From Jiangella asiatica (GTDB taxonomy: Bacteria > Actinomycetota > Actinomycetes > Jiangellales > Jiangellaceae), in assembly GCF_004349065.1 (NCBI RefSeq), contig NZ_SMKZ01000016.1, forward strand, positions 1-64,000: 64,000 nt of DNA, read 5' to 3'. The translations under genes and the position numbers were made by a program. Each line of letters begins with the position of its first letter. The stretch's first letter is position 1. Under the pieces are notes generated by a model. It did not search any database and was not told the DNA's origin. It was given only the letters and a program-made list of their open reading frames with translations. Below are positions 37,774 through 60,812 of the stretch, in pieces.

Positions 37774-38916
37774 TCAACGCGGGAAGGCGGCCGACAGCGC
37801 CTCCAGCAGGGCGGTCCCCCGGTCGGTGTCGGGAAGCAGGTACGACCCCTCGGTCCACTCGTTCCAGGCGTTCACCGTCACGATCGGCGGCGCGTCCGGT
37901 TGCACCGCGAGCAACTGCGCGGCGTCCGCGGCAGCCTTCGCGACCGACGCCGCCGAGCACTCGAACACCGGGGTCCAGCCGTAGCCGGGGTTGTACTCCC
38001 ACGGTCCGTCCGGCGAGGTACGGGGCGAGCTGTCCCAGCCGACGGAGAGGTTGGGGATGAACGGCAGCGACAGCTCGTGAGGGTAGGCGCGGTACTGGTC
38101 GAACACCTCCTCCCGGACGCGGTCCCAGTCGCCCACTGGGAAGGAGTGCGCGGAGAGGTCGACATGGTGGAGCCAGGTGTAGGAGCTGGTGGACGCCACC
38201 GGCAGCGCCTGGAGGAGCTGCCGTGGCCGGTCGAGGGTCACGTGGTTGGGCAGGACGCCGGTCCCCCACACCACCACGTCGACGTGCACCCCCGGGAGGC
38301 CGGCGCGGCGGGCCTTGCGGTCTAAGGAGCGCAGTGCGTCGGCGGCTGCGTCCGGGCCGCCCATGGACTCCACGAAGGTGCCGAGCTCGTAGACGGAGAA
38401 GAAGGGCCGCCCAGCGACGGTGTGGTAGTCCGGCCGGCTGAAGTAGGCCGCCACGATGTGGTCGGTCATCGCCTCGAAGGCGTCCCGGGCGATGGCACCG
38501 GGGCGGAGCAGGCGCGGCCGGCTGCGCGAGGTGGGCGCGGGCAGCGGGTAGAGGTCCAGCAGGTCGTGGTTGGCCCACATGAGGGCGAACCGAAAGGGGG
38601 AGCCGCCCGTTTCCCGGCCGAGGAACCCCTCGTCGAGCGCGCGCTGGAGGTACGGCCCGTCGTCGTACCAGTAGTAGTCGAAGATGAAGCCGTCGATGCC
38701 GTGGTCATGGGCGAGGCGCACCTCCGACTCCATGACGACGGGGTCGCTCTCGTCCCGGCAGCCGAGCGCGGGAACACGAGGCTGGCGATGACCCGGGAAC
38801 CGGGGAACCGCCCGGTTCACCAGCTCCCATTCGGTGAAGCCGGGAGAGATCCACTCGGCATCGCGCTCGTCGGCGTGCCAATGCGGGAAGTAGTAGGCCA
38901 GCACATCAGGTCTCAC
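37774..38916 (-). CDS. WbsX/GH99-like glycoside hydrolase or glycosyltransferase-like protein
   Basis: A 380-residue cytoplasmic protein with the full WbsX pattern: LAYYFPHWHADERDAEWISPGFTEWELV, HGIDGFIFDYYWYDDGPYL, FRFALMWANHD, and late TVNAWNEWTEGSYLLPDT. WbsX-like proteins are placed beside GH99 endo-mannosidases and are linked to surface polysaccharides. Here the protein is last in a carbohydrate-import operon, so oligosaccharide hydrolysis is more likely (inference). GTG 38916 is preferred for its GAGGAAC site at ideal spacing; GTG 38928 would add four residues. Confidence 0.8.
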   Translation of the reverse strand: MRPDVLAYYFPHWHADERDAEWISPGFTEWELVNRAVPRFPGHRQPRVPALGCRDESDPVVMESEVRLAHDHGIDGFIFDYYWYDDGPYLQRALDEGFLGRETGGSPFRFALMWANHDLLDLYPLPAPTSRSRPRLLRPGAIARDAFEAMTDHIVAAYFSRPDYHTVAGRPFFSVYELGTFVESMGGPDAAADALRSLDRKARRAGLPGVHVDVVVWGTGVLPNHVTLDRPRQLLQALPVASTSSYTWLHHVDLSAHSFPVGDWDRVREEVFDQYRAYPHELSLPFIPNLSVGWDSSPRTSPDGPWEYNPGYGWTPVFECSAASVAKAAADAAQLLAVQPDAPPIVTVNAWNEWTEGSYLLPDTDRGTALLEALSAAFPR

Positions 38917-38976
38917 GTGGTTCCTCACTTCTGGTCGTTCCGGGTCGGCGTTCGGTCAGCTCGGGCGTCGGTTCCG

Positions 38977-39765
38977 TCATTTGATGGCGCCCGCGAGGAA
39001 GCCGGCCCGCACCTGGCGCTGGAACACGAGATAGAGCGCGACGATCGGCAGGCTGATGAGCAGGTTGGCGGCGAAGACCTTCGGCAGGTCGATGTGCCGC
39101 TCGCTCTGGAAGTAGGTGGGGATCTGCGTCACCACCTGAGCGCTGTGGTCCTGCAGGAACAGCAGCGGCAGGAAGTACTCGTTCCACGCGGCCAGGAAGG
39201 TGAAGATGATGATGACGGCCATGATCGGCCTGGCCAGCGGGACGACGATGCGCGCGAAGATCTGCACGGCGCCGGCACCGTCGAGCCGGGCGGCCTCGTG
39301 GATCTCGTCCGGGATCCCCATCAGGTAGTTGCGCGCGACGAGCACGCCGAACGGGACGGTCAGCGCGCTGAGCGGGAGAATCACCGCGATCGGCGTGTCG
39401 AACAGGCCGAGCCGCTGGATGGTCACGAACAGCGGCACGGTGAGCGCCATGCCGGGCAGCGCCAGGCCGGCGATGATCGCGATCTGGCTGGTCCGCGCGA
39501 ACGTCGCGCGGAGCACGACCATGCCGTAGGCGGCGGCCATCGCCACCGTCGTGACGACGACCACGGTCGTGGCGGCGATGACGATGCTGTTGAGGAAGAA
39601 CCGCAAGAACGGCGTGCCGGCGACCACCTCGACGTAGTTGCGCCACCCCTCGCCTTCCAGGGACTCCTTGACCACGAGCAGCAGGGGCAGCGTCAGGACC
39701 ACCAGGAGGACGACGACGAGGAGCTGGCTGACGACCCGGCCGGCCCTCGACTGGTGACGGAACAT
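38977..39765 (-). CDS. Carbohydrate ABC transporter permease (CUT1, MalG type)
   Basis: A 262-residue permease with six hydrophobic helices and the EAA loop GIPDEIHEAARLDGAGAVQIFARIVVPLARP near residue 170. It is slightly shorter than most MalG proteins. ATG 39765 follows GGGAGG that overlaps the end of the MalF-type gene 4 bases away. It forms the channel with the partner permease; the ATPase is not in this operon, which is common where a shared MsiK-type ATPase serves several importers. Confidence 0.92.
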   Translation of the reverse strand: MFRHQSRAGRVVSQLLVVVLLVVLTLPLLLVVKESLEGEGWRNYVEVVAGTPFLRFFLNSIVIAATTVVVVTTVAMAAAYGMVVLRATFARTSQIAIIAGLALPGMALTVPLFVTIQRLGLFDTPIAVILPLSALTVPFGVLVARNYLMGIPDEIHEAARLDGAGAVQIFARIVVPLARPIMAVIIIFTFLAAWNEYFLPLLFLQDHSAQVVTQIPTYFQSERHIDLPKVFAANLLISLPIVALYLVFQRQVRAGFLAGAIK

Positions 39766-39768
39766 CGC

Positions 39769-40653
39769 TCAGACCTCCCGGAGTCGCGAGAGTCGGACCT
39801 GCAGGACCGCGAACACGAGCGCGATCGCCACGAGGACGAGGGACAGCGCGGCGCCGTAGCCGGCGTGGAAGCGCAGGATCGTCTGTTCGTAGATGTGCAG
39901 GGTGAGCAGTTCCGTCGACGTTCCCGGCCCACCGGCCGTCGTGAGCACGACCAGGTCGAACGTCTTCAGGGAGCTGATCGCGGTCAGCACGATGAGGACC
40001 AGGTGCGCGCCGCGGAGGTTCGGCAGCACGACCGCAGTGAACGTTCGCCGGTTGGACGCGCCGTCGATCTGTGCCGCCTCCAGGGTCGCCGGGTCCACCT
40101 GGGAGATCGCGGCGTCGTAGATGACGAAGCTGTAGCCGGTGTACTGCCAGACGGTGATGGCGACCAGCGTGGCCAGCGCGAACGTCGAGTCGGCCAGCCA
40201 GGGCCTGGCGAGCCCGTCCATGCCGACCGCCCTGAGCACGTCGTTCAACGCGCCTTCCTGGTCGAGCAGGTATCGGGCCGTCGTCCCGATGATCGCCGGT
40301 GAGAGGACCACAGGCACGAAGATCAGCACGCGCAGCAGGTTCCGGCCGCGCGCCTGTGTGCGTACCAGGACAGCCACGCCGAGACCGGCACCGAGCTGCA
40401 GAACCGTGACCGCTACGGCGTAGACGGCGGTGTTCCGCATGGCCGCGAGGAACACGTCGTCCTCGATGATCGCCGTGTAGTTGTCCAGGCCGATCGAGCG
40501 CCACGTGGGCGCGATCCCGTTCCAGTCGGTCGTACTGATGACGCCGTTGTAGACGATGCCGACATGGACGATCCCCACGACCAGGATCAGCGCCGGGAGC
40601 AGCCAGAGCAGGCCGGCCAGGCGGGCTCGCCGGTCAGAGCGGCGGACGGTCAA
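39769..40653 (-). CDS. Carbohydrate ABC transporter permease (CUT1, MalF type)
   Basis: A 294-residue permease with six helices (first at LAGLLWLLPALILVVGIVHVGIVYNGV) and the EAA loop QVDPATLEAAQIDGASNRRTFTAVVLPNLRG. No ATG precedes the first helix. TTG 40653, overlapping the binding-protein stop (TTGA), is the best start and implies coupling. Confidence 0.9.
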   Translation of the reverse strand: MTVRRSDRRARLAGLLWLLPALILVVGIVHVGIVYNGVISTTDWNGIAPTWRSIGLDNYTAIIEDDVFLAAMRNTAVYAVAVTVLQLGAGLGVAVLVRTQARGRNLLRVLIFVPVVLSPAIIGTTARYLLDQEGALNDVLRAVGMDGLARPWLADSTFALATLVAITVWQYTGYSFVIYDAAISQVDPATLEAAQIDGASNRRTFTAVVLPNLRGAHLVLIVLTAISSLKTFDLVVLTTAGGPGTSTELLTLHIYEQTILRFHAGYGAALSLVLVAIALVFAVLQVRLSRLREV

Positions 40654-41981
40654 CGGTCGATGCCTGCGGACACCTGCTCGACCTCGGACAGCGCGTCCTC
40701 GATCGATCCCGGGTCGGCGATGATGGTCGAGAGCGCCTGACCCAGCGCCGCCTCCAGGTCCGGGTACGAGATCTGCCGCGGCCCGACCAGCTCCGCGAGG
40801 CCCGCCTGCTGTGCCTCGATGTTCTCGACCTGGTCGGAGACCACGACGTCGCCGGTGCTGATCGCGACGTCGGTGTTCGCCGGGAAGTTGGCCAGCGCGG
40901 CCTGGACGTCCTGGCCGCCGCCGTGGGTCAGGAACTCGACCAGGTCGTACGCCTCGTCCGGATGCGCGCTCTGCGCCGAGATCGCCCAGCCGTTGTCGGG
41001 GCCCCCGAACAGTGCTGTCGGTTCCTTGCCGCTCTGCGGGGCCGGGAACGGCGCGGAGTAGAACGGGCCGGACGGTTCGCCCGAGATGCCCTCGGCGGAC
41101 AGCGCCAGCCCTTCGGTCGTCATGGTGCCCGCGGTGTTCCAGGTCCCGAGCGCGATGAACGCGGCACCGCCGCCGACGAACTCGTTGAACGCGTCCGGGT
41201 ACTCGGCACGCGACGCGGCGCCGTCGGCGACGATCCCGTTCTGGAAGAGGGACGCGAACTCGGTCGCGGCCGTCACGAACTCCGGAGCGTCCCACGCGGT
41301 GTCGCCGGCGATGGCGTCGTACACGAGTCCCGGCTCGTCGGAGTTGATGACGGACAGGAAGAGGTCGATGTTGGCCCACGCGTCCTTGGCGCCGTGTGCC
41401 AGGCACTGCCGGCCGCTGGCGACGACCGCGGCGCAGGTCGTCTCCCACGCCTCGAACGTCGTGGGCACTTCGACGCCGACCTCGTCGAGGACCGACTGGT
41501 TGTAGTAGACGAGTCCCGCCGCGCTCATGATCCCGGGCAGGGCGGCCTGCTTGTCGTCGAAGGCCAGCTGCTCGAGGCCGGCGGCGTAGAAGCTGTCGCG
41601 CCACTGTGCGCCCAGGCTCTCCTCCAGGTGCGGTACCAGGTCGACCGCCAACGGCTCGTAGTTCGCCAGCATCCCGCCGGGCTGCACCTGGAAGACGTCC
41701 GGGCCGTCGCTGCCGGTGAGCGCGGGGCGCAGGGCCTGGAGGTAGTCGTTGTAGGCGTACGGGCGGAACTCCACCGTGACGCCGGGGTGCTCCTCCTCGA
41801 ACGCCGCGACGGTCTCCTCCGCGGCGGCGATGTTCCAGCCGACCATCGTCAACCGCACGCCCTGCGAGGCGTCGTCGCCGCCGGAGCCGCCGTCGGACCC
41901 GCTTCCACAGGCGGCGAGGCTCAGCACGATCGTGGCGGCGACGGGTACGACGAACCGTCGCTGGACGCGGCGCGTTCTCAT
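40650..41981 (-). CDS. Carbohydrate ABC transporter substrate-binding lipoprotein (CUT1, family 1)
   Basis: A 443-residue protein with lipobox LSLAAC (Cys25) followed by a Gly/Ser/Asp linker. The mature part is an oligosaccharide-binding fold: TMVGWNIAAAEETVAAFEEEHPGVTVEFRPYAYNDYLQAL, GPDVFQVQPGGMLANYEPL, PGIMSAAGLVYYNQSVLDEVGVEVPTTFEAWETTCAAVV, FGGPDNGWAISAQSAHPDEAYDLVEFL. It delivers an oligosaccharide to the two permeases after it. ATG 41981 with AAAGGAG; its start overlaps the stop of the giant upstream gene (ATGA). Confidence 0.93.
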   Translation of the reverse strand: MRTRRVQRRFVVPVAATIVLSLAACGSGSDGGSGGDDASQGVRLTMVGWNIAAAEETVAAFEEEHPGVTVEFRPYAYNDYLQALRPALTGSDGPDVFQVQPGGMLANYEPLAVDLVPHLEESLGAQWRDSFYAAGLEQLAFDDKQAALPGIMSAAGLVYYNQSVLDEVGVEVPTTFEAWETTCAAVVASGRQCLAHGAKDAWANIDLFLSVINSDEPGLVYDAIAGDTAWDAPEFVTAATEFASLFQNGIVADGAASRAEYPDAFNEFVGGGAAFIALGTWNTAGTMTTEGLALSAEGISGEPSGPFYSAPFPAPQSGKEPTALFGGPDNGWAISAQSAHPDEAYDLVEFLTHGGGQDVQAALANFPANTDVAISTGDVVVSDQVENIEAQQAGLAELVGPRQISYPDLEAALGQALSTIIADPGSIEDALSEVEQVSAGIDR

Positions 41982-44900
41982 GGCTTGGGCTCCTTTGCTG
42001 AAACGTCCTGGACCGGCAGCAGCTCGACGTGGTCGACGTGGAAGGTACCGGTGCTGTCGCCTTCCTCGGGGTCGAGCCGGAGCTGGCGCAGCACACCGGT
42101 CCACCCACCGACCGTGCTCAGGTCCAGCTCGTAGTCCACGTAGCCGGTCTCACCGGGCACCAGCGGGATGCGGATGCTCTTGGACTCGCTGAAGTTCGGT
42201 TCGGCCTCCGTGGTGAAGTACAGGGTGCCGTGCATCGCGCTGGTGTCGACGGCCATCCGGATCGACACCGTCGTCAGCTCGGTGAGGTCGAGCCAGAGTC
42301 CGGGCGCGGAGTAGAACTGCGGGTCGGGACCGACGATCGTGCCGCCCACTCCCCCGTCGCGCCACCCGAACCCGTCGATGTTGCCGGCCTGGCCCCAGCC
42401 TTCGGCGGACTCGTCGAAGGTCCAGGTGCGCTTGGTGTTGACCGACGTCAGCACGAACGGCTCGACGCGGACGGTGTCCAGGCGCAGCTCCTGGCCCGGC
42501 TCCGCGCCGACGAGCTCGACGGCGAGGCTCTCCAGCAGCCCCCGCCACTCGGGCACCGTGTCCATGCTGACCTGGTAGGTCGTGAACGCCTCGTCGTGCG
42601 CGGTGATGTCGAAGGGGACGGCGTGTTCCGTGCCCTCCGGGTCGTCGGTCGTGGTGAACCGGACGACACCCTGAGCAGCCGACGAGTCGTTGCGCAGCCG
42701 CAGCGTCACGGTGTCGGCGTTGGTGATGTCGGCTCGCAGGTCCGGCGGGGACCGGAGCTCGTCGTCGACGCCGTCGAGCGGAACGCCGATCGAGCCGTCG
42801 GGCCCGCTGGTCGCTCCCGGCGCCGTCCACCCGTCGAGGTCGTCGCCAGCGAAGTGTGCGGCGTAGACGGCGTGGTCCGGCGCGAGCCGCACGTGCCCGA
42901 GGTCCAGCCGGCCCTCGTCCGCCGAGACCTCGATCCCGATCTGGCGAATCGTCCCCGACCAGCCCGGCGCGTCCGTCAGGTCGACGACGTAGGCGGTGTA
43001 GCCGCTGTCGGCCGCGATGCGGAACGGACGCCGCCCGGTCACGGTCCGCCCGTCCGGCGTGGTCGCCACGTAGCGCAGGTGCGCCTCGCGCGCCGTCGTC
43101 CGGTTCTGGAGCTCGACCAGGACGGACCGGAGCTCCCCTGCGTCGATCTCGAGGTCGGCGGCTGACAGCAGCGCGGCGCCGGCTCCGTCGACGACGCCCC
43201 CGATCGTGCCGCCCGCCGCCCATTCGGGCCCGCCCAGCGGACCCTCCCCGGTCCATCCGTCCGTGCTCTCGGCGAACTCCCACGAGGTGCCCGACGGCGA
43301 CACCGCGGGGTCGCGGCCCGACCGGACCCTGATCTCGGCCAGCTCCGGCGCCGCGCCGGTCGTCCCAGTGACGACCAGCTGAACGGCGTCGGCGCGGGTT
43401 GTGCCGAGCTCGATGGTCGTGGCCGCGTCCAGCTCGCCGCCCCGGTGCACGGTGCGCCAGCCGCGGGCGTCGTGCAGGCGTACCTCGAACGAGGTCACCG
43501 TGGCGTCGGCGGTCCTGGGCACGACGTCGATGCGGTCGAACGGCACGGTCCGGCCGAAGGACAGCTCGACGTGGTCGCCGGCCTCCTGGGTGCCGCGCCA
43601 GTACGTTCCCACGCTGCCGTCGTTGACCTGTCCGGCGTTGGTTGCGAACCACTGTGCGGGGGCGAACGAGGAGGCCGTGGCGTACGCGGCGTCGGCGAGG
43701 TTCGACGTATCGAGGTCGCCGCCGCGGCCGGCGGCCCCGACGCCGTACTCGAAGTAGTCGTGGTAGTAGGTGCCGCTCTGCGCCTTGAACACCACCATGA
43801 TCTCGTGCTGGCCATCGGGCAGGCCACGCACCTCGAAGACGGTCCGCCGCGGATCGCTCCGCTCGCTGTACAGGTTGACGACGCCTTGCGACAGCCCGTC
43901 GACGAACACCTCCGCCTCCGTGCCCTGCGGGCCGGCCGGAGCCACCCAGCGCACGGCGTTGCCTTCGAAGCCGGTCCGGATGAAGCTGCGGAAGAAGGCG
44001 TCGGGCCGGCCGCCGGGGTTGTAGAGGTAGCTGTGCGTGCCGCCCGAGCTCTCCGGGTCCGCGACCGTCACCCAGCTGCTCGCCTCCGGGGTCACGTGCG
44101 CCTCGTAGTCAGTCGTCGGGTCGTCGTCCTCGATCCGGTACCACCCCGACGCCTGCTCCGGCAGCGGTTCCACCGCGGGCGGGCCCGTCGGCTCCCCCGC
44201 GGCGGGGTGGTCGCCGGTGTCATAGAGGTAGCTGAACCGGCCGTCCGGCGCGGCGTCCCCGGAGACGTACGCGTCCACGATGTCGTCGCTTTGCTGGTTG
44301 TCCCACCACTTGAAGCCCAGGCGCAGCGGCTCGCCGGAACCGCCCAGCTCGGCCCGCGGCACGGCCACCATCAGCTCGTCCTTCCCGGTGGTGAACGAGA
44401 GCGACTCCCGGACCGTCTGCCAGCCGTCGGCGACGGTGAACCGCTCGAGCCGCGCGTCTTCCTCGCCGTGCCAGCGGACCCGCAGGTCGTAGCCGGACCA
44501 GCCGGTGGCCCCGTCGGAGTCGGCGTCGAGGTAGAGCGTCATCCAGCCCTCGTCGGAAGCGTCGGTCAGCTCGTCGTGTGTCCGCACGTAGAAGTAGACG
44601 TTGTCGCTGTCCCTGGCCACCTTCGCCGAGACGATGTCGTTGCGGCCGGTCCGGTTCACATACGTGCGCGCGTCGACACCCGGGTGGTCGCGGTGCGCGG
44701 TGTCGCCCTGGTAGTCCGCGTACTCCGGTGACACGTCCCGCCACTGGGCGAACCCGCCGCGCAGGTCGATGGTGTGTTCGCCGCCGGTGTCGGCGGGCGG
44801 CTCCACGCCCTTGTAGCGGCGGATGTTGTCGACCAGCTGCAGGTAGTAGTTGTCGCCGTAGCCGCCGGTCATCGGCGCGAGGTCACGGCTCCAGCGGGTG

Positions 44901-46069
44901 TTCACGACGTCGTAGAACACGAGCGGATCGCTGGGCCGCGCCGCCCAGTTGCCGGCGATCCACTCGTTCCACTCGAGCACGAGGATCGTCTCGGGGTCCG
45001 CCTCGATGGCGTGGTCCCACTGCTCCTGGAAGTTGAACCCGTGGTTCTCCGCGCCCGGCGACTCGTCCTCCGCGCCGTCGTGGAAGCTGCGGCTGCGTGA
45101 CGGCGGGTCGTCCAGGCCGTACCACGCGGTGTAGCTGAAGATCGACGAACTGCCGGAGTTCTGCGCCGGGGAGACCGCCATCTGTTCGAGGTTGCCCTCG
45201 GCGTCGTGGTTGCCCCGCTGCGGGCGGTCGAAGCTGATCCAGTCCCAGCCGTCGGCGGGCTGCTGCGGCTCGTTCGGCCACTGGGCGTAGCGGAACGTGA
45301 AGAACTCCTGGACGGCCCGAGACGGGTCGACGCCCATGATCAGCGGCTTGCCGTCCCAGTGGAACCACGTGCTCGGATACCGGTGCGGCGCGTCGTCGGC
45401 GTAGAACGTCCGGTAGATCTCGTCCATGTTCCGCGACGACTCGGTGTGCGTCATGAAGACGACCTGCGGCGCCCGCACGCCCTGCGACTGCAGCTCGACG
45501 ATCGTGCGCATGAGCAGGATCGCCTGCGGCTTGTAGACCTCCCAGTTCGACGCGTCGAGCACCAGGTAGTCCACCTGCGCGGCGGCAAGCAGCTGCAGGT
45601 CACGGCGGACCACCCACGCGTCGTCGCTGCGGAAGTAGCCGTAGAGCGGTTCGCCCCAGTAGGCGAAGTGACCCGGCCCAGGAAAGGCGCCGCTGTCCGG
45701 CGTCTGCCACGCGAGCGGGTCCTCGGCCAGGGTGGCGTTGTTGTCGAAGACGTTCTTGTACTCCCGCATGTCGTTCGACCCGTGCCAGAGCACGTAGAAC
45801 ACGCCGACGGTGCGGTCCTCGCGCGGCGGCGGCGCCTCGGTGTGGTCGGCCAGCTCGCGGCCCAGCGCGTCGGTGGCCACCAGCGGGCCGCCCGGCGCCA
45901 TGACGTTCGCGACGGTCTCGGCCGGGCCGGCGCTCGGCTCGCTGGCGACCGGGGCGGCCGCGGATCCCGGCCCGGACAGGGCGAGCACCATAGCCGCCGC
46001 GGCGGTGCCCATCGCCAGCAGCCGGCGCAGGCGGGAGCGCAAGCGCATCGAGCGTTCGTCCGTGGTCAC
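41978..46069 (-). CDS. Giant secreted GH99/WbsX-like protein with triplicated C-terminal beta-sandwich modules
   Basis: A 1363-residue exported protein starting at GTG 46069 after AAGGGAG. Signal peptide about residues 1-36. Residues about 70-420 form a GH99/WbsX-like TIM barrel (TVGVFYVLWHGSND, AAAQVDYLVLDASNWEVY, ILVLEWNEWIAGNW). Next comes a DOMON/CBM9-like module near 450-600 (VSAKVARDSDNVYFYVRTHDE). A malectin-like segment and an F5/8-C-type discoidin domain (about 800-930; NDGSVGTYWRGTQEAGDHVELSFG) follow. Three tandem copies of a roughly 135-residue jelly-roll then run to the end, each opening W-F-(E)-x-S-x-(E/D)-G-W and ending in a GHV/DTV/DHV strand. It probably cleaves and grips a cell-surface or plant glycan whose fragments the CUT1 importer takes up. 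Confidence 0.85.
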   Translation of the reverse strand: MTTDERSMRLRSRLRRLLAMGTAAAAMVLALSGPGSAAAPVASEPSAGPAETVANVMAPGGPLVATDALGRELADHTEAPPPREDRTVGVFYVLWHGSNDMREYKNVFDNNATLAEDPLAWQTPDSGAFPGPGHFAYWGEPLYGYFRSDDAWVVRRDLQLLAAAQVDYLVLDASNWEVYKPQAILLMRTIVELQSQGVRAPQVVFMTHTESSRNMDEIYRTFYADDAPHRYPSTWFHWDGKPLIMGVDPSRAVQEFFTFRYAQWPNEPQQPADGWDWISFDRPQRGNHDAEGNLEQMAVSPAQNSGSSSIFSYTAWYGLDDPPSRSRSFHDGAEDESPGAENHGFNFQEQWDHAIEADPETILVLEWNEWIAGNWAARPSDPLVFYDVVNTRWSRDLAPMTGGYGDNYYLQLVDNIRRYKGVEPPADTGGEHTIDLRGGFAQWRDVSPEYADYQGDTAHRDHPGVDARTYVNRTGRNDIVSAKVARDSDNVYFYVRTHDELTDASDEGWMTLYLDADSDGATGWSGYDLRVRWHGEEDARLERFTVADGWQTVRESLSFTTGKDELMVAVPRAELGGSGEPLRLGFKWWDNQQSDDIVDAYVSGDAAPDGRFSYLYDTGDHPAAGEPTGPPAVEPLPEQASGWYRIEDDDPTTDYEAHVTPEASSWVTVADPESSGGTHSYLYNPGGRPDAFFRSFIRTGFEGNAVRWVAPAGPQGTEAEVFVDGLSQGVVNLYSERSDPRRTVFEVRGLPDGQHEIMVVFKAQSGTYYHDYFEYGVGAAGRGGDLDTSNLADAAYATASSFAPAQWFATNAGQVNDGSVGTYWRGTQEAGDHVELSFGRTVPFDRIDVVPRTADATVTSFEVRLHDARGWRTVHRGGELDAATTIELGTTRADAVQLVVTGTTGAAPELAEIRVRSGRDPAVSPSGTSWEFAESTDGWTGEGPLGGPEWAAGGTIGGVVDGAGAALLSAADLEIDAGELRSVLVELQNRTTAREAHLRYVATTPDGRTVTGRRPFRIAADSGYTAYVVDLTDAPGWSGTIRQIGIEVSADEGRLDLGHVRLAPDHAVYAAHFAGDDLDGWTAPGATSGPDGSIGVPLDGVDDELRSPPDLRADITNADTVTLRLRNDSSAAQGVVRFTTTDDPEGTEHAVPFDITAHDEAFTTYQVSMDTVPEWRGLLESLAVELVGAEPGQELRLDTVRVEPFVLTSVNTKRTWTFDESAEGWGQAGNIDGFGWRDGGVGGTIVGPDPQFYSAPGLWLDLTELTTVSIRMAVDTSAMHGTLYFTTEAEPNFSESKSIRIPLVPGETGYVDYELDLSTVGGWTGVLRQLRLDPEEGDSTGTFHVDHVELLPVQDVSAKEPKP

Positions 46070-46194: not shown

Positions 46195-47073
46195 GTGATC
46201 ACACGGTATCGACGACGCGAAACGCTTCCGGTTGCAGGGCCGGCCATCGCCGCGGAGCTCATGGACGGCCTCGGCGAGGTCGGCCCGCACAGCCACGAGT
46301 TCATCGAGATCGTGCTGGTCGAGAGCGGCCGGGCCGACCACGAGACACGCTCGGTCAGACGGGCGGTGCACCGGGGCTACTGTGCGGTGCTTCGGCCCGG
46401 CGAGTGGCACAGCTGGCGCGACTGCGAGCAGCTGCGCGTCTGGAACATCTACCTCGGTACCGAGGTGCTCCAGTCAGCGCTGAGCTGGCTGCGCGACACC
46501 CCCGAGTGCAGCAGCCTGATCAGCCCGCCCGCTCCCGGGCGCGTCACCGAGCGCGTCCTGGCCGACCCCGCGCTCACGAACGTCATCGGGTGGCTGACCG
46601 CGATGCCGCCCCGGCAGCCCGCCGACGGCATCTCGCCGTCGGCCCGCCGCGCCGGCCTGCTGACCGCGGCCCTCGGCGAGATCGCGGCGGCGCCTGAGCT
46701 CGACGAGCCGGCCGCGGGCCTGCGGCCGGCACCGCACCTGCCGGCGACCATCGCGAGCACGCTGCGGCTGCTGGAGCACGATGTCGCGCACCCGTGGACC
46801 CTGGGCGAGCTCGCCGAGCACACCCACCTGTCGCCGTCACACCTGTCCCGGCTGTTCTCGCAGGCCACCGGCATGGCGCCCATTGCCTACCTCGCCCGGC
46901 TGCGCGCCGAACACGTCGCCGCCGACCTCATCAACGGCGACGACCCGATCGCCGAGATCGGACGCCGCTACGGCTGGCCCGACCCGAACTACCTCAGCCG
47001 GCGGTTCCGCCAGGTCTTCGGCGTCTCCCCGCGGGCGTTCCGGCACCGTTACAGCCAGGCGACCCCGTCGTGA
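46195..47073 (+). CDS. AraC-family transcriptional regulator
   Basis: A 292-residue regulator. The N-terminal cupin-like sensor domain has HSHEFIEIVLVESGRADHETRSVRR, CAVLRPGEWHSWRDC and WNIYLGTEVL. The C-terminal double helix-turn-helix runs from about residue 190 (TLGELAEHTHLSPSHLSRLFSQATGMAPIAYLARLRAEHVAADLI, IAEIGRRYGWPDPNYLSRRFRQVFGVSPRAFRHRY). GTG 46195 follows CAGGAG. Divergent from the 46069-37774 operon, which it likely activates in response to a sugar. Confidence 0.93.
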   Translation: MITRYRRRETLPVAGPAIAAELMDGLGEVGPHSHEFIEIVLVESGRADHETRSVRRAVHRGYCAVLRPGEWHSWRDCEQLRVWNIYLGTEVLQSALSWLRDTPECSSLISPPAPGRVTERVLADPALTNVIGWLTAMPPRQPADGISPSARRAGLLTAALGEIAAAPELDEPAAGLRPAPHLPATIASTLRLLEHDVAHPWTLGELAEHTHLSPSHLSRLFSQATGMAPIAYLARLRAEHVAADLINGDDPIAEIGRRYGWPDPNYLSRRFRQVFGVSPRAFRHRYSQATPS

Positions 47074-47313: not shown

Positions 47314-49866
47314 TCAAGCGGTCGAGAGCACGTCGTACCGGGCGGCGTGCCAGGCCGGACCGCCGGGCGCGGGCTCGAGGCGCACCTCCAGCTCGCTCCG
47401 ACCCCGGGTCAGCGCCGGCGGCAGGGCGAACGTGTCCTCCGCCCAGCGTTGGTGCGGGTTGCCGTTCGGCGCGAGCCACCGCCCGGCCCACCTGCCGTCG
47501 ACGTACACGTCGGCGCTCTGGTACGAGACAGCACGGTCGAAGCGGCGGCGCAGCTCGACCAGGGCGTGGTGGCGGTCGGTGTGGACGGTGAAGTGCACCG
47601 GGTCGGTGGTGGCGCGGCCGTGGTCGGTCACCTCGACGTCGTCGTCGTCGCCCTCGAAGACCGCGGTGAGGGTCGTGACGGCGCCCGGCTCGCCCGCCGC
47701 GCCGGTGTAGCCGTGCGCCGCCTCGCTGGCCGGGTCGCCGACGTCGACGGAGTCGGTGACCGTCGCCGCCGGCAGTTCGCGGCCGTACCAGAACGCCGTC
47801 GACCCGTAGCTGCCCGGCCACTCGTTGGCGCCGCCGTGCTCGATGCCGAAGCGCAGCGCGGCCGAGAACGGGACCGCGTCGCCGATCATCAGGCGGTACG
47901 CCGAGTCGCACAGCCAGGCGCAGCCGAGCTCCTGCACCTCGGCGGCGGTGTTGCCGGTGAACGGGTTCGAGAACGGCCCGGTCGCGAAGTACCACGCGCC
48001 TTCGTAAAAGTCCTCGGTGCCGGTGCCGTGCAGCTGCGGGCTGGCGGCCCCGTCGACGTGCACGCGCTCATCGCCCTCGAGGTAGCCGCGCGAGTTGATC
48101 GAGCCGGGCAGCTGCTCGCCCAGCATCGTGTGCGAGACGCCGACGAACCGCCCCTGCCCCCTGGTGTCGAGGAAGCGCCAGTCGCGGTGCTCGACGGTCG
48201 CGCCGGCCAGCGCGGTCGCCCGGAAGGTTCCCAGGTCGCCGCGCGGGCCGAGCCCGATCGCCGTCCGGGCGTTCCGGTGCCAGCGCACGGCGCCGTCGAC
48301 CAGCTCGACGTCGAGGTCGGAGGTGTTGACCAGCTCGACGCGGGCGGACCGCACGAACGGCATCGGCCACCACGACCGGTACCAGCCGTCCGGCGCGGTG
48401 TCGACGGCGAAGAACAGCGACCGGACGGGGTACTCGCCGAGGCCGGTGCCGAAGAACTCGCCCAGCGGCGCGTCCACGGTGGTCGCGCCGTCGACGCTGA
48501 CCCGTACCCGCAGGTCACGCAGGAGTGCGTCGGAGGTGGCGATCGGCTCGGGCTCGCCGGTGGGCGGGTACGGGTTCCACTGCGCGCCGGCCCACAGCTG
48601 GCCCTCGATCGCGTAGCCGTGCGCGGCCTCGGACTCCGCCGCCTCCGGGCCGATGTCGACGACGTCGGTGCGCACCCACTCGTCGCCCACCCGGGAGTCG
48701 ACCCAGTAGTGGAACTCCTCGAAGCTGCCGAAGATCGAGTCGACCGCGTCGGTATGAACGGTGACGCTCGACCGGCCCGCGGTGAGCGCGGCCGGCAGCT
48801 CGAGGGTGGCGTCGGTCCACCGCGGCGCGTTGGTGGACGGCAGGTGCGGCCACGAGCCGGCCGGCACGCCGTCGACGCTCACGTCGGCGACCTGGGTGGC
48901 CGCCCAGAACGTGTTGACCCGCCGGGTGAGCCGGACGCCGGTGTTGCGCGCGTCGATCGCGACGGTGAACTGGCTGTGGCCGGGCTTGCGGAAGCCGCGG
49001 CCGTCGTCGCGGACGGTCGGCGACCGGTCCGGGCCGACGATCTGGGGTATCCGCAGCGCCAGCTCGTCGATGACGCCCGGCCCGCGCAGCCGGCCCAGCT
49101 CGATCGAGCCGCCGGCGGGCAGGGTGGCGCTGTGCGATGCGGTCAGCGGGTGCTCCGCCGGTGGCTTCGGGTCCGCGGTGCCGGCGCGTCGCAGCATCGC
49201 GATAACGTCCTCGGCCCGGTCGGCGGGGTCGAAGGTGCGCACCCCCTCCGCGTCGGCGAACGCCCGGTAGGTGACGTGGTAGAACTGCGCGTTCTCGGTC
49301 GTGGTGATCCGCATCGACTCGCGGAACGGCATCGGCACCCGTACCGAGACGCCGCCGGAGCTCTGGTCGCGGTTGGCCACCAGCGGGTACACGAACGGCG
49401 CGCCCAGCTCACCGTCCACCACGTCCTGTGCCGGTGCGTCGACGACGACCCGACCGTCCAGCTCGATGACCAACCGGCCCAGCGAGGTGACGTTGCCCGG
49501 GTCGGCGAGGTCGCGGGTGAACCAGATGCTCTGCACCTCTCCGGCGCCGCTCGCCTCGGCGATGACGCAACCATCGGCCGTGGTGCGCAGACACGAGCCG
49601 GCGACGGCGTCGGCGTTGCCGCCGGTCCGGTCGTAGCTGGAGAACTGCAGCGTCCGCACCCCGGTGGGCAGGACGGGGAGCAGATCCAGCCGGCGGTAGA
49701 CGTCCCAGCCGATCGGGCCCTTGGCGGTGGACGCGCTCGCGGGCTCCGCGCCGGCCGTGGGCTCGGCGTCGGCCGTGACGTCGCCCGTCACCCCCGTCAG
49801 GCCCGTCACGGTGAGCGCGACCAGAGCACCAGCGGTGACCAAGGATTTCGCACGCATCGGGCTCAC
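47314..49866 (-). CDS. Secreted GH172 (DUF2961) glycoside hydrolase-like protein
   Basis: An 850-residue protein with a signal peptide (KSLVTAGALVALTVTGLTGV). Residues about 50-700 show the DUF2961/GH172 framework: PTGVRTLQFSSYDRTGGNAD, IWFTRDLADPGNVTSLGRLVIELDG, PLVANRDQSSGGVSVRVPMPF and the signature HGTGTEDFYEGAWYF. A C-terminal beta domain has RFDRAVSYQSADVYVDGRWAGRW. Known GH172 enzymes act on fructofuranose or D-arabinofuranose linkages. The GTG start at 49866 overlaps the GH67 stop (GTGA), so it is third in the operon. Confidence 0.87.
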   Translation of the reverse strand: MSPMRAKSLVTAGALVALTVTGLTGVTGDVTADAEPTAGAEPASASTAKGPIGWDVYRRLDLLPVLPTGVRTLQFSSYDRTGGNADAVAGSCLRTTADGCVIAEASGAGEVQSIWFTRDLADPGNVTSLGRLVIELDGRVVVDAPAQDVVDGELGAPFVYPLVANRDQSSGGVSVRVPMPFRESMRITTTENAQFYHVTYRAFADAEGVRTFDPADRAEDVIAMLRRAGTADPKPPAEHPLTASHSATLPAGGSIELGRLRGPGVIDELALRIPQIVGPDRSPTVRDDGRGFRKPGHSQFTVAIDARNTGVRLTRRVNTFWAATQVADVSVDGVPAGSWPHLPSTNAPRWTDATLELPAALTAGRSSVTVHTDAVDSIFGSFEEFHYWVDSRVGDEWVRTDVVDIGPEAAESEAAHGYAIEGQLWAGAQWNPYPPTGEPEPIATSDALLRDLRVRVSVDGATTVDAPLGEFFGTGLGEYPVRSLFFAVDTAPDGWYRSWWPMPFVRSARVELVNTSDLDVELVDGAVRWHRNARTAIGLGPRGDLGTFRATALAGATVEHRDWRFLDTRGQGRFVGVSHTMLGEQLPGSINSRGYLEGDERVHVDGAASPQLHGTGTEDFYEGAWYFATGPFSNPFTGNTAAEVQELGCAWLCDSAYRLMIGDAVPFSAALRFGIEHGGANEWPGSYGSTAFWYGRELPAATVTDSVDVGDPASEAAHGYTGAAGEPGAVTTLTAVFEGDDDDVEVTDHGRATTDPVHFTVHTDRHHALVELRRRFDRAVSYQSADVYVDGRWAGRWLAPNGNPHQRWAEDTFALPPALTRGRSELEVRLEPAPGGPAWHAARYDVLSTA

Positions 49867-52800
49867 CTTTCCCGCGCCGGCCGGCGCATGATCAGGGCGT
49901 TGAGGTGCCAGTGCTGACCCGGCAGGCTGCTCAGCTCCAGGTCCGCCTCACGGCCGGCGGCGCCGCCGTCGAGGTCGAAGCGGAGCCAGGCGAACGCGCC
50001 GCCGGCCAGGACGGGACTCTCGGCGAGGAGCTCACCACCGGAGCGGATCGAGGTCGGCTGCGCGAGCACGGTGTCGCCGACCAGGACGAACACCTCGTGG
50101 AGGCCGGCCGGAACCGCCAGGCGCAGTGTGCGCGTCTGCGCGTCGTTGCAGAAGTCGCGGCGCAGCGGGTCGAGCACGCCGCCACGGTCCCGCGACTGTG
50201 GCGGGCCACTGACCCACCCGCAGCCGCGGGCGGCGTCCCAGGCGTCCTCCGGTGCCAGCCGCCGGTAGGTCCCGACGACGGGGCTCGCGGCGGCGCCGGC
50301 GTCCAGGGCGAGCACGACCTCGTCGCCGCCGGGCACCGCGAGCAGCTCGACCTCGTGCCGGCCGCCGCCGACGGAGTGCGGCCCGGCGGTCACCTCCACC
50401 TGCAGCGTGACCGGCGGTGTGGGGTCCGGCGGGGGTAGGACGGCGGCCCGCAGCGTGGCCGTCTCCCCGGCCGCGACGGTGGCGACGGCGTCGGTACCGC
50501 TCCACCCCGCGGGCACGCCGACGTGGACGGTGGTCGCGATCGCGGTGTCCGGCGTCGTGTTGGTGACGGTGACGGCGACCTCGCCGCCGGTGCCGCCCAC
50601 CAGCAGCCGCGGCGCGTCCAGCGCGGTGACCGCGATGGCCGGCGGCTCGGCGTCGGGATCCACGAGCGCGAACGCCACCAGGTGCCAGGCGCCGGTGGTC
50701 GGCGCCTGCTGGGGCAGCTCCCAGTGGTAGTCGACGCTGGACAGCTCCAGGTCCACGTCGCGCCCATCCGCCCCGCCGTCCAGCCCGAACCGCAGCCACG
50801 TGTAGCTGCCGCCGGGCAGGTTCTCCTCCGACGCGGCCAGCAGCTCACCGCCGGACCGCACGAACGTCGGGTAGACCGGCGCCCACCAGCGGTCGCCCAC
50901 CAGCAGGTACGCGTCGTGCGGCCCCGGCGGCACGCTGACCCGCAGCGTACGGGGGACGATGTCGTAGATGATCTCGCGCCGCAGGTCGTCCAGCGCGTTG
51001 CCGCGGTCCAGGGCGCGCGGTGTCCCGCCGACCCAGCCGAAGCCCCGCTCGGGGTCCCAGGCGTCGGTGGGCGCGAGCCGCCGGTAGCCGAACTGGACCG
51101 GGTACAGGGCGGAGTCCGGTCCGGCGTCGAGCGCGAGGACGCACCGCTGGCCGGCCGGCGCCACCAGGACGTCGGTCGGCGTGGTGCCGAGCACCGGGAC
51201 GCCGGCACCGGCGACGTCGGGCGCGACGACGGCGCCGCCCGGGGCCAGCGGCGGGGTCAGCGGCAGGTCGACCGTCCGCACCTCGCCCGGTGACAGCGTG
51301 AGGTCCTGGCCGGTGCCGCTCCAGCCGTCCGGCAGGTCCAGCCCGACGGTGACCGACCGCGGCTCGGCGGTGGCGTTGCCGGCCCGCAGCGCCAGCGTGT
51401 TCGGCCAGCCGCCCAGCAGGAGGAGCGACGGCGGCTCCAGGATGATGGACCCGCCGGGGAGCGCCGCCTGCACCCACCGGTGGTGCTCCGAGCGGATGCC
51501 GGTGAGCCCGAACAGGTAGTCCACGCAGGTGTCGCGCCACAGCGTCGCGTGCGCCAGCTGCCCGTCGAGAAACTCCAGGACCTCCTCGTGCCGCCGCCGG
51601 TCGATCCGGCCGGCCAGGCGCTGCCAGTCGCGGCGCGTCCGGGCCACGTCCGCCACGCCGCGGACGTAGGCGTCGTAGATGTGCTGGAGCAGGGTGCTTC
51701 CCGAGCGCAGCCGGTGGTCGTACGGCAGCCGGTGGAACACCAGCAGCAGCTCCTCGGGGCAGGTGGCCACCGAGTCGAAGATGTCGGAGTTCGGCGGGTG
51801 GTAGACCTGGGTGGCGCCGGTGCCGGTGGCGACGGTTCGGTCGGTGCCGATCTCGGTCGCGGTGGCGTTGTGGAACGGCGGCGTCGGATGGTTGCGGCCG
51901 GTGAAGCCGCCCATCAGCGGCGCGGTGTACGACTCGTAGACCCCGCGCGACTCCAGCAGCATCGCGGTGACGACCTCGACCATCCGGCGCTCGGACCCGA
52001 ACGTCATCCGGACCCACTCCTCGGCGATCTCCGCCGCGCTCAGCTCTGGGTTCCAGGCCAGCCGGCCGTAGCCGTGAGTGTTGGCGGCGGCCAGATGGTT
52101 GCCGGCCCAGGTGACGTCGTCGCCGAGGTTCATCACGCCGGCCAGCCCGGCGTGTGCCGATCCGTACGCCCGGCCGCTCGCGACGGCGGCGACGGTGGTG
52201 CCCGGCCCGTCGGCGTGGGTGTCGAAGTCGAGGATCTCCTTCCAGCCCGGCACCAGGTAGCACAGGTGCCGGCCCTGGCCCGTGTACTCCTGCAGGACCT
52301 GCAGCTCCATGACGAGGTTCGTGTTCGGCATCGCGCCGAACAGCGGATGCGCCGGTTCGCGGACCTGGAAGTCGATCGGCCCGAACTTGACCTGCACGAT
52401 CGCGTTGTCGGCGAACTCACCGTCCAGCGGCCGGAACACGTTGTACGCCGCGGTCACGAACTCGCCGCCGCCCTCGTGCCCGACGAAGGCGCGCCACATG
52501 ACGATGCCGCCGTGCGGCTCCAGCGCCGCGGCCAGCATGTTCGCGCCGTCGGCGTGAGTGCGCCCGTACGCGATCGGACCCGGCTGGCCTTCGGAGTCGG
52601 CCTTCACCAGGAAGCCGCCGAAGTCGGGGATCGCGGCGTAGATCTCGTCGGCCTTGGCCCGCCACCACGCCCGGACGTCCTCGTCCAGCGGGTCCGCCGT
52701 GGGCAGGCCGCCGACCGCGCGCGGGCTGAAGAAGTTCGCGCACAGGTAGAGCCGGATGCCCCAGGCCCGGAACACGGCCGCGAGCGGGACCAGGTTGCCG

Positions 52801-53576
52801 ATCATCTCGGTGGTGATGAACTCGTGCTCGGCGTTCACGATGTTCACGACCGAGCCGTTCATGCCGATCGACGCCAGCGCCCGGGCGTAGTCGGTGTAGC
52901 GCGGCCGGAGCGCCGGCAGCTCCTCCCAGTGGAAGACCGACCGCCCGGCCGAGCCCCACTGCACCACCCGGTCCAGGTAGTCCCAGTGGTTGGCCAGCCG
53001 CAGCGGGTTGACCGGCCCTTCGCACACGTCCAGGCCGTCCAGAGGCTGCCTCGTCTGCAGCAGCCGCAGCAGGTGGAACGCTCCGTACAGCACGCCGGCC
53101 GGGCCGCCGCCGGCCACCAGGACCACCTCGTGACCGTGCACCACGGCTCCGCGCAGCAGGTAGCCCTCGGCGCCGACGGCGTCCAGGTCGCCGGCGGGCA
53201 CGTGCGCGGCCACGATCGGTGACGCCCCGGTACCCAGCACGACCGCGCCGTCGCGCGCCGGTGCCGGAGCCTCCTCGACCGGCCGGCCCAGCAGCCCGGA
53301 CAGTCCGCGCACCAGCTCGCCGGCCGCGGAGGCCAGCGGCTCGGCGTCGCCGTCCCGCACGACGTGCGTCAACCGGCGCCGGTAGGCCGCGAGCAGGTCG
53401 CCCGGCTCGACCGGGCGGTACCGCAGCCACAGCTCGTAGCCGTCCTCGTCCGGCGGCGCACCCGCCGATCCGGCTGGCTCCCAGGCCGTGGCCGGCGCGA
53501 CCGCCGACACGTAGGCGCCCGCGGTCGCGACGCCGCCGGTGGCCAGGAACCGCCGCCGGGTCCAACTGTGCTCCAT
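49863..53576 (-). CDS. Tat-exported GH67 alpha-glucuronidase-like protein with duplicated C-terminal modules
   Basis: A 1237-residue protein with a twin-arginine signal (WTRRRFLATGG). Residues about 45-720 follow GH67 closely: DGYELWLRYRPVEPGDL, LRLANHWDYLDRVV, NGSVVNIVNAEHEF, GGFLVKADSEGQPGPIAYGRTHADGANMLAAAL, WNPELSAAEIAEEWVRMTF. Known GH67 enzymes are about 700 residues, so roughly 500 residues are extra. That extension holds an NPCBM-associated-like sandwich (TVGLDLPDGWSGTGQDLTLSPGEV) and two copies of a module about 140 residues long (YRRLAP-x-DAWD, GW-V-x-G-x-P, RSGGELLA, WLRF-x-LDGG, DLELSS). Expected to remove 4-O-methylglucuronate from xylan-type fragments. ATG 53576 after GAGGAG. 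Confidence 0.9.
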   Translation of the reverse strand: MEHSWTRRRFLATGGVATAGAYVSAVAPATAWEPAGSAGAPPDEDGYELWLRYRPVEPGDLLAAYRRRLTHVVRDGDAEPLASAAGELVRGLSGLLGRPVEEAPAPARDGAVVLGTGASPIVAAHVPAGDLDAVGAEGYLLRGAVVHGHEVVLVAGGGPAGVLYGAFHLLRLLQTRQPLDGLDVCEGPVNPLRLANHWDYLDRVVQWGSAGRSVFHWEELPALRPRYTDYARALASIGMNGSVVNIVNAEHEFITTEMIGNLVPLAAVFRAWGIRLYLCANFFSPRAVGGLPTADPLDEDVRAWWRAKADEIYAAIPDFGGFLVKADSEGQPGPIAYGRTHADGANMLAAALEPHGGIVMWRAFVGHEGGGEFVTAAYNVFRPLDGEFADNAIVQVKFGPIDFQVREPAHPLFGAMPNTNLVMELQVLQEYTGQGRHLCYLVPGWKEILDFDTHADGPGTTVAAVASGRAYGSAHAGLAGVMNLGDDVTWAGNHLAAANTHGYGRLAWNPELSAAEIAEEWVRMTFGSERRMVEVVTAMLLESRGVYESYTAPLMGGFTGRNHPTPPFHNATATEIGTDRTVATGTGATQVYHPPNSDIFDSVATCPEELLLVFHRLPYDHRLRSGSTLLQHIYDAYVRGVADVARTRRDWQRLAGRIDRRRHEEVLEFLDGQLAHATLWRDTCVDYLFGLTGIRSEHHRWVQAALPGGSIILEPPSLLLLGGWPNTLALRAGNATAEPRSVTVGLDLPDGWSGTGQDLTLSPGEVRTVDLPLTPPLAPGGAVVAPDVAGAGVPVLGTTPTDVLVAPAGQRCVLALDAGPDSALYPVQFGYRRLAPTDAWDPERGFGWVGGTPRALDRGNALDDLRREIIYDIVPRTLRVSVPPGPHDAYLLVGDRWWAPVYPTFVRSGGELLAASEENLPGGSYTWLRFGLDGGADGRDVDLELSSVDYHWELPQQAPTTGAWHLVAFALVDPDAEPPAIAVTALDAPRLLVGGTGGEVAVTVTNTTPDTAIATTVHVGVPAGWSGTDAVATVAAGETATLRAAVLPPPDPTPPVTLQVEVTAGPHSVGGGRHEVELLAVPGGDEVVLALDAGAAASPVVGTYRRLAPEDAWDAARGCGWVSGPPQSRDRGGVLDPLRRDFCNDAQTRTLRLAVPAGLHEVFVLVGDTVLAQPTSIRSGGELLAESPVLAGGAFAWLRFDLDGGAAGREADLELSSLPGQHWHLNALIMRRPARER

Positions 53577-53586
53577 GGCGGTCTCC

Positions 53587-56289: not shown

Positions 56290-56316
56290 CAGGATTCCCT
56301 TCGAAGGGGAGGCGGC

Positions 56317-56349
56317 ATGTGGACTAGTATGGCAGTATTCATGCCACAT
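56317..56349. promoter_or_regulatory. Inverted repeats in the divergent promoter
   Basis: TGGCA-GTATTCA-TGCCA (56330-56346) is nested in a wider ATGTGG (56317-56322) / CCACAT (56344-56349) pair, in the 79-base gap between two divergent operons. The surrounding ACTAGTATGGCAGTATTC is the only AT-rich stretch nearby. Confidence 0.4.
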
Positions 56350-56368
56350 CGCCTAGGGGGTGTGACCC

Positions 56369-57559
56369 GTGGATGTGGGTTCGCGTGCGGCCGCAGCCGG
56401 CGGCACAACCCTCACGCCCCCTGTCGCCGCAGCCTGTGAGGCCACTGCCATGACCTTCGTCCAGGAACCGTCCCAACCCCTTCGTGTCGCCGTCGTGGGG
56501 ACGGGCCAGATCGCCCGCTTCGCCCACCTGCCCGCCGTGCGGAGCGTGGGCGCGCAGCTGGAGCTGGTGGCCGCCGTCGACGTCGACGAGAGCGTGGCCA
56601 AGGAGTTCGCGACGAGCTTCGGCGCGGGTGCAGCCTTCACCGACGTGGCGACGATGCTCGACGCCGTCCGGCCGGACCTGGTTCTCGTCTGCACTCCCCC
56701 GGCGTGGCACGCCGAGGTCGTCGTCGCGACGGTGCGGGCTGGAGCGTGGGCGTTCTGCGAGAAGCCGCCAACGGCATCGCTGGCCGAGCTGGACCGCATC
56801 GCCGCGGCCGAAGCCGCGGGCGGCGGCCGGGCGGAGTTCGTCTTCCAGTGGCGCACCGGCTCCGCCGCCGAACACGTGCGCCGACTGATCGCCGACGGGA
56901 CACTCGGCCGGGCACTGGTGGCCATGGTGTCGACGACGTGGTATCGCGACGCGGCCTACTACGAGGCGCCGTGGCGGGGTCGCTGGGAGACCGAGATCGG
57001 CGGCGCCACCGCCGGGCAGGGCATCCACGCCATTGATCTGCTGCTGTCGCTGCTCGGGCCGTGGCGGACGGTCACCGCGGTGGCCGACACTCTGGAGCGC
57101 GCCATCGAGGTCGAGGACACCTCGATGGCCATCGTCCGGTTCGAGTCCGGCGCGCTGGCCAGCCTGGTCACGAGCGTGCTGTGCCCGCGGGAGGACAGCG
57201 CCGTGCGGATCGACCTGCAGGACGCCACCGTCGAGCTGCGCCAGCACAGTGGCGACGGCAGCGGCTGGACGGTGGTCCCCCGCCCCGGCCTCGGCGACGA
57301 CCGGCTGGCCGCGGCCGGCCCGGTACCGCACGACGTCCCCGCCAGCCACGGCAGCCAGCTGCGCCGGCTGGTCGACGACCTGCGCGCCGGGCGCGCGCCG
57401 GCCACCGGGGTGGGACAGGTCCGCCCGACGGTGGAACTGCTCGCCGCGCTGTACAAATCCGCCGCCAGCGGCCGCCCCGTCCGGGCTGGGGAGATCGGGC
57501 CGGACGACCCGTACTACGCCTCCATGCACGGCGGCCGCGGCACCGTCAGCACCGGATGA
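56369..57559 (+). CDS. Gfo/Idh/MocA-family sugar oxidoreductase
   Basis: A 396-residue protein with an N-terminal NAD(P) fold (VAVVGTGQIARFAHLPAVRSV) and the family EKP motif in AFCEKPPTASLAELDRI. A catalytic-domain region has GGATAGQGIHAIDLLLSLLG with His near the usual catalytic position. About 27 residues before the Rossmann strand are Ala/Thr-rich and could be spurious. GTG 56369 has a strong AGGGGG site; ATG 56450 (MTFVQEPSQP) would give the standard domain start. It oxidises or reduces a sugar or cyclitol with NAD(P)(H). Confidence 0.87.
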   Translation: MDVGSRAAAAGGTTLTPPVAAACEATAMTFVQEPSQPLRVAVVGTGQIARFAHLPAVRSVGAQLELVAAVDVDESVAKEFATSFGAGAAFTDVATMLDAVRPDLVLVCTPPAWHAEVVVATVRAGAWAFCEKPPTASLAELDRIAAAEAAGGGRAEFVFQWRTGSAAEHVRRLIADGTLGRALVAMVSTTWYRDAAYYEAPWRGRWETEIGGATAGQGIHAIDLLLSLLGPWRTVTAVADTLERAIEVEDTSMAIVRFESGALASLVTSVLCPREDSAVRIDLQDATVELRQHSGDGSGWTVVPRPGLGDDRLAAAGPVPHDVPASHGSQLRRLVDDLRAGRAPATGVGQVRPTVELLAALYKSAASGRPVRAGEIGPDDPYYASMHGGRGTVSTG

Positions 57560-57592
57560 CCGAGGACCCCACCGCACAGAAGGGTGACCACC

Positions 57593-58615: not shown

Positions 58616-58619
58616 CGGC

Positions 58620-60803: not shown

Positions 60804-60812
60804 CGTCGGTTC

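Follow-up and report, generated by a model that had tools for sequence, protein, structure and literature searches.

A GH99-related barrel family with alanine at the acid/base position, linked to a CUT1 importer and a WbsX-family protein in Jiangella asiatica

Glycoside hydrolases of family GH99 act by an unusual 1,2-anhydro-sugar mechanism that requires two glutamates. The EW[H/G]E motif of these enzymes is conserved across all domains of life (PMC11025385), and in GH71 the change of the equivalent Glu to Ala lowers activity by ~1,600-fold (AnGH71B) to 15,000-fold (AnGH71C) (PMC12394665). GH195, a distant relative of GH99, is an active endo-mannanase (PMC13063451); therefore, GH99 relatives outside GH99 can be active. 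OpGH99A (PDB 5ngw) has been crystallised and, by its title as cited in PMC13063451, is a GH99-related protein lacking catalytic machinery. Going by that title, pseudoenzymes exist in this fold as well. For the WbsX proteins (PF14307), whose Pfam name is still that of a glycosyltransferase, our literature search found nothing useful on function.

The window analysed here, a stretch of 64,000 nucleotides from Jiangella asiatica, encodes a giant protein whose barrel can be set beside each of these systems. With GH99 (BtGH99, BxGH99 and human MANEA) it shares the barrel fold and homology at the profile level, and in both the WNEW segment that holds the first catalytic Glu lies at the end of strand 8, but its family has Ala at the acid/base position, lacks HIEPY and always has a CBM9-like domain attached. 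It shares a fold superfamily with WbsX (hhalign probability 86%, E 5e-6) and an Asp at the end of strand 3; WbsX, in contrast, retains the E..E pair and is predicted to be cytoplasmic here, and PF14307 does not match the giant. Like the giant family, GH195, an endo C6-sulfate α-1,3-mannanase family that is secreted and endo-acting (PMC13063451), is a distant GH99 relative outside GH99, whereas its founder is a sulfatase fusion from marine Bacteroidota; this comparison is by description and not by sequence. OpGH99A has the same fold as the giant barrel (Z 16.5), but the canonical catalytic set is absent in it, the giant-family profile does not match it at E up to 10, and the giant family retains one invariant catalytic-site Glu. 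The barrel of the GH71 α-1,3-glucanases is related (Z 15) and carries a β-sandwich, as in the giant, but GH71 retains D..E at the motif.

Architecture of the giant protein

The giant gene (41978..46069, minus strand, as are all features below unless stated) encodes 1363 residues from a GTG start, with an ATG at 46048 also possible, and begins 125 bp from a divergent AraC gene. A Sec signal peptide is predicted at residues ~8-38 (45956..46048; hydropathy only), and this N-terminus suggests that the protein is secreted. The GH99-fold (β/α)8 barrel spans residues ~85-425 (44795..45817), as placed by AlphaFold2 and by fold and profile matches, and is followed by a CBM9/DOMON-like β-sandwich at residues 426-617 (44219..44794; model and structure match) that resembles CBM9 (1i82, E=6e-4) and accompanies the barrel in every homologue. 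The model of barrel and sandwich together (residues 55-625) reaches a pTM of 0.85. A β-rich stretch of ~150 residues (~640-790; 43700..44152), absent from the domain list of the preliminary description, has weak similarity to CE2_N (E=0.12) and low model confidence.

The F5/8 type C domain (discoidin, CBM32-like; residues 797-905, 43355..43681; PF00754, E=4e-9) is the sole match of the giant in a Pfam search, and a sequence search of the PDB gave no significant match. Three β-sandwich repeats of 127-136 residues complete the protein: residues 929-1062 (42884..43285), 1076-1202 (42464..42844) and 1215-1350 (42020..42427). Each matches, at E<1e-38, an iterated profile built outward from the last repeat, and each is modelled as all-β with a pLDDT of ~80-90. 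The C-terminal half as a whole is all-β and resembles tandem CBM22/CBM32-type sandwiches, a likeness of fold class only since the whole-length TM score is low; the repeats are well predicted, but the overall pTM is 0.36 and the model does not fix the arrangement of the modules.

The giant is full length in three genomes of the same genus at 83-84% identity, in another genus at 69%, and in two Paenibacillus at 48-52% over 1330 residues. This conservation and the domain matches confirm the 1363-residue reading frame with barrel, DOMON-like part, discoidin domain and three repeats that had been read from the sequence earlier. The giant of Paenibacillus sp. 598K has 2230 residues and ends in SLH domains, which supports a surface location.

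The C-terminal repeat also occurs elsewhere. A 949-residue right-handed β-helix protein in a Jiangella genome (L036:8203-11049) carries two copies of it, which marks the repeat as a mobile module. Another Jiangella genome (G007) encodes three secreted proteins of 1567-1722 residues beside CUT1 permeases (L026:6684-11849, L033:5829-10529 and L034:6086-11065). They combine a WbsX-type barrel in which NE[WFY]GEG is intact, LamG-like parts, the giant's repeat and a C-terminal β-helix-like stretch.

The barrel family and its catalytic site

The model of the giant barrel matches GH99 structures (MANEA, BxGH99) with Z 17-18, while unrelated barrels score Z 12-13, and the family profile finds GH99 structures in the PDB at E=7e-7. 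Five of the 18 family members touch PF16317 (GH99), the best at E=3e-5. No Pfam or NCBIfam model matches the barrel of the window giant, and PF14307 matches neither the giant at E up to 1 nor any of the 18 relatives at E up to 5.

Conservation was counted over 51 non-redundant homologues of the giant barrel from six phyla. The GH99 segment FNEWHE aligns ungapped with WNEWxA of the family, in the window giant W367-N-E369-W-I-A372 (44954..44971), so that the first GH99 carboxylate is present and the second, the acid/base, is Ala. The GH99 pair E..E is thus E..A (E369, A372) in 51/51 members. We considered a sequencing or frame error behind the missing Glu and rejected it because Ala stands in all 51 independent sequences. 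The H[I/L]EPY motif is also missing: the window has F-M-T-H-T in the aligned stretch, and almost all homologues carry N, P or H where GH99 has the Glu. Since the acid/base Glu is Ala, H[I/L]EPY is absent and PF14307 does not match, the barrel is, as judged by sequence, a member of neither GH99 nor WbsX, despite its GH99 fold and distant homology. The label "GH99/WbsX-like" given to the giant in the preliminary description therefore holds for the fold (Z 17-18) and the profile match (E 7e-7) but not for family membership (EWxA in 51/51, no PF14307). That description had also looked to the catalytic acids of the barrel: one of the two is absent (A372) and E369 is retained, and the WbsX partner retains both.

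The residues invariant in 51/51 are D172, N175, W367, N368, E369, A372, D387, R395 and D406. Positions near the C-terminal strand ends of the barrel are more conserved than the rest (Mann-Whitney p=8e-4): 11 of 56 there are nearly invariant versus 22 of 284 elsewhere. D172 lies at the end of strand 3; its aligned counterpart in WbsX is D84, which is likewise invariant, and GH99 has no acid there in the alignment. E349 fails as a strictly invariant acid, being Gln in 1/51, and E140 (WGEP) is K, R or N in 4/51.

Eighteen named contigs contain the core of barrel and CBM9-like domain; they belong to Actinomycetota, Bacillota, Planctomycetota, Bacteroidota, Verrucomicrobiota and Armatimonadota. Full-length copies were found in 4 of 12 genomes of the same genus, in 17 of 297 sampled Paenibacillaceae, in 5 of 199 Planctomycetota and in 3 of 395 Bacteroidota, the last with reading frames of 592-1400 residues; among 296 sampled genomes of the phylum, no other genome held one. 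These low counts indicate that the family is rare and patchy. In about a dozen Paenibacillaceae the core is a CBM-poor protein of ~570 residues that lacks a signal peptide; the operons around it also encode CUT1 components, a GntR/LacI-type regulator, a GH78-type rhamnosidase and a secreted protein with DUF5722. Taken together, the barrels are a real and conserved GH99-related family that is probably undescribed so far.

The operon and its conservation

Downstream of the giant, its stop codon overlaps as ATGA with the start of the gene for a CUT1 solute-binding lipoprotein (SBP_bac_1; 40650..41984). The gene of a MalF/UgpA-type CUT1 permease (39769..40653) follows with a 4-nt TTGA overlap, and that of a MalG/UgpE-type permease (38977..39765) 3 bp further. 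The operon thus holds SBP_bac_1 and two BPD_transp_1 permeases, as in a CUT1 importer; none of its genes in the window encodes a MalK-type ATPase. After 48 bp comes the gene of a 384-residue WbsX-family barrel (37774..38928; PF14307, E=2e-42, 146 bits versus a curated Pfam cut-off of 25.1) that lacks a signal peptide and, from its N-terminus, is predicted to be cytoplasmic. Its motif N356-E357-W-T-E360-G (37846..37863) has both GH99-type carboxylates, and E357 and E360 are invariant in 12/12 WbsX sequences. The preliminary description is accordingly confirmed in the ATGA coupling of the giant to a binding protein, and in the two permeases and the second WbsX-type protein that come next.

The order AraC, giant, SBP, MalF, MalG, WbsX is identical in three other Jiangella genomes. 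The divergent AraC-type regulator (46195..47073, plus strand) is conserved beside the giant within the genus and also in one further genome (G016). The actinomycete MAG DX1.bin79 has the giant in reverse orientation, again adjacent. Paenibacillus sp. 598K and RH52_bin.008 have the giant, then a YesN/YesM two-component pair, the SBP, two permeases and WbsX. Their WbsX proteins are 44% identical to that of the window, and their permeases are ~28-31% identical to those of Jiangella. Judged by repeated direct adjacency, the giant, the CUT1 genes and WbsX are linked in two Paenibacillus and, among actinomycetes, in four Jiangella genomes and one other genus. The regulators (AraC versus YesMN) and the importers differ, yet giant and WbsX stay linked in both phyla, which supports the logic of the operon. 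The proposed arrangement of one barrel outside and one inside the cell, both locations being predicted, joined by a CUT1 importer, is conserved across these genomes.

The WbsX-linked giants form one clade (support 100/100), and in the WbsX tree all operon copies fall within one supported set of 15. The WbsX tree is not fully congruent, since the window WbsX has a nearer relative in one Jiangella WbsX that lacks a giant than in the Paenibacillus operon copies; this points to partner exchange or loss. In secreted giants that are more distant, namely G571, which has a GH20 enzyme, and G625, the link to CUT1 persists but WbsX is absent. The cytoplasmic partners thus vary (WbsX, GH78, GH20), suggesting that the substrate differs between lineages.

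Past AraC, the window holds a second gene group (47314-63470) that encodes GH172/DUF2961, a GH67 α-glucuronidase with a NEW3-type domain, a metallophosphatase joined to PQQ-type propeller repeats, GH3, an FGE-sulfatase-domain protein and a ~750-residue protein that has no Pfam match. We rejected a whole-locus PUL that would include its GH172, GH67, GH3 and FGE-type genes, since such neighbours are missing within the flanks read in the other operon carriers.

A possible route for glycan use

We favour a reading in which the operon is a route for glycan capture, import and trimming, and the secreted barrel is catalytic with a relocated acid; we give it a probability of roughly 0.5. The giant would be secreted, and its CBM9-like domain, discoidin domain and three repeats would hold a polysaccharide; one Paenibacillus version would be anchored to the cell wall by its SLH domains. 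Its GH99-fold barrel would cut the bound glycan into oligosaccharides, with E369 as the base and a different conserved acid replacing the lost GH99 glutamate. Candidates for this acid, from alignment and secondary structure, are D172 (strand 3 end), D387 (loop following strand 8) and E349. The lipoprotein and the two permeases would import the pieces, with an ATPase that we assume to be encoded elsewhere and shared, and the cytoplasmic WbsX, with both catalytic glutamates intact, would trim them. Cleavage outside, trimming inside and the direction of flow between them are likewise presumed.

At the level of the barrel, this reading would make the proteins a new GH family of the GH99/GH71/WbsX superfamily, present in at least six phyla, that uses E369 together with D172 or D387 as the relocated acid and serves as a modular giant outside and a small enzyme inside the cell; we consider this slightly short of an even chance. 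We count against catalysis the missing GH99/GH71 acid/base and that no member has a known activity, and the incomplete congruence of the WbsX tree speaks against the proposed route. Alternatively, the giant barrel may be a pseudoenzyme in a surface glycan-binding platform, and the cutting would be done by other enzymes and the cytoplasmic WbsX. The invariant loss of the GH99 acid/base, the many binding-type β-sandwiches of the giant, and the precedent of OpGH99A (Z 16.5 to our model), to the extent that its title conveys, make this a real rival. However, E369 and the rest of the active-site face do not vary across the six phyla, and a capture role makes little sense for cytoplasmic versions that lack extra binding modules and lie beside importers and exo-glycosidases. 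The CBM-poor relatives of ~570 residues in CUT1/GH78 operons fit an enzyme better than an adhesin, and we regard the binding platform as somewhat unlikely.

The retained carboxylate, with the acid changed to the same residue in all members, fits adaptation to another chemistry better than decay. The barrel might then carry out a related but different reaction: a lyase step, transglycosylation, or the hydrolysis, without an acid catalyst, of a linkage that has a good leaving group. The partner genes (GH78, GH20, WbsX) are ordinary glycosidases, though, and we regard such a reaction as improbable. A further reading follows the family labels of the preliminary description: outside the cell a canonical enzyme of the GH99/WbsX type, acting on mannan as an endo-mannanase or on O-antigen, and another such enzyme in the cytoplasm. 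The GH99 fold, the distant homology and the true WbsX inside the cell agree with it, but the giant has neither EW[H/G]E nor H[I/L]EPY and no PF14307 match, so that it is contradicted at the sequence level. In addition, the partners and the likely substrates vary, and we found no evidence here for mannan or O-antigen, given the different cytoplasmic partners of the relatives (WbsX, GH78 rhamnosidase, GH20). A canonical pair is therefore highly improbable.

A widespread sister family of GH99 with a fixed Ala at one glutamate offers a natural test of how catalysis is altered or lost in this fold. The operon, found in more than one phylum, is in turn a defined genetic unit of binder or cutter, importer and trimmer for finding the substrate of WbsX.

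The Paenibacillaceae loci contain further unusual genes. The secreted DUF5722 protein (~1330 residues; L122:15130-19104) and its relatives in 8 other loci lie beside the cytoplasmic barrel version, and our literature search found no paper that mentions DUF5722. A CUT1 permease with an N-terminal β-propeller (WD40/PQQ-like) before BPD_transp_1 occurs at L122:2055-4007 and in 11 further loci, and at L137:15508-17562 NHL repeats are fused to a Yip1-like membrane domain in a position similar to that of the propeller permease. In Paenibacillus nasutitermitis (L134:4563-12730), an SBP and CUT1 permeases come after three tandem barrel-core genes, of which two encode secreted proteins and one a protein that lacks a signal peptide.
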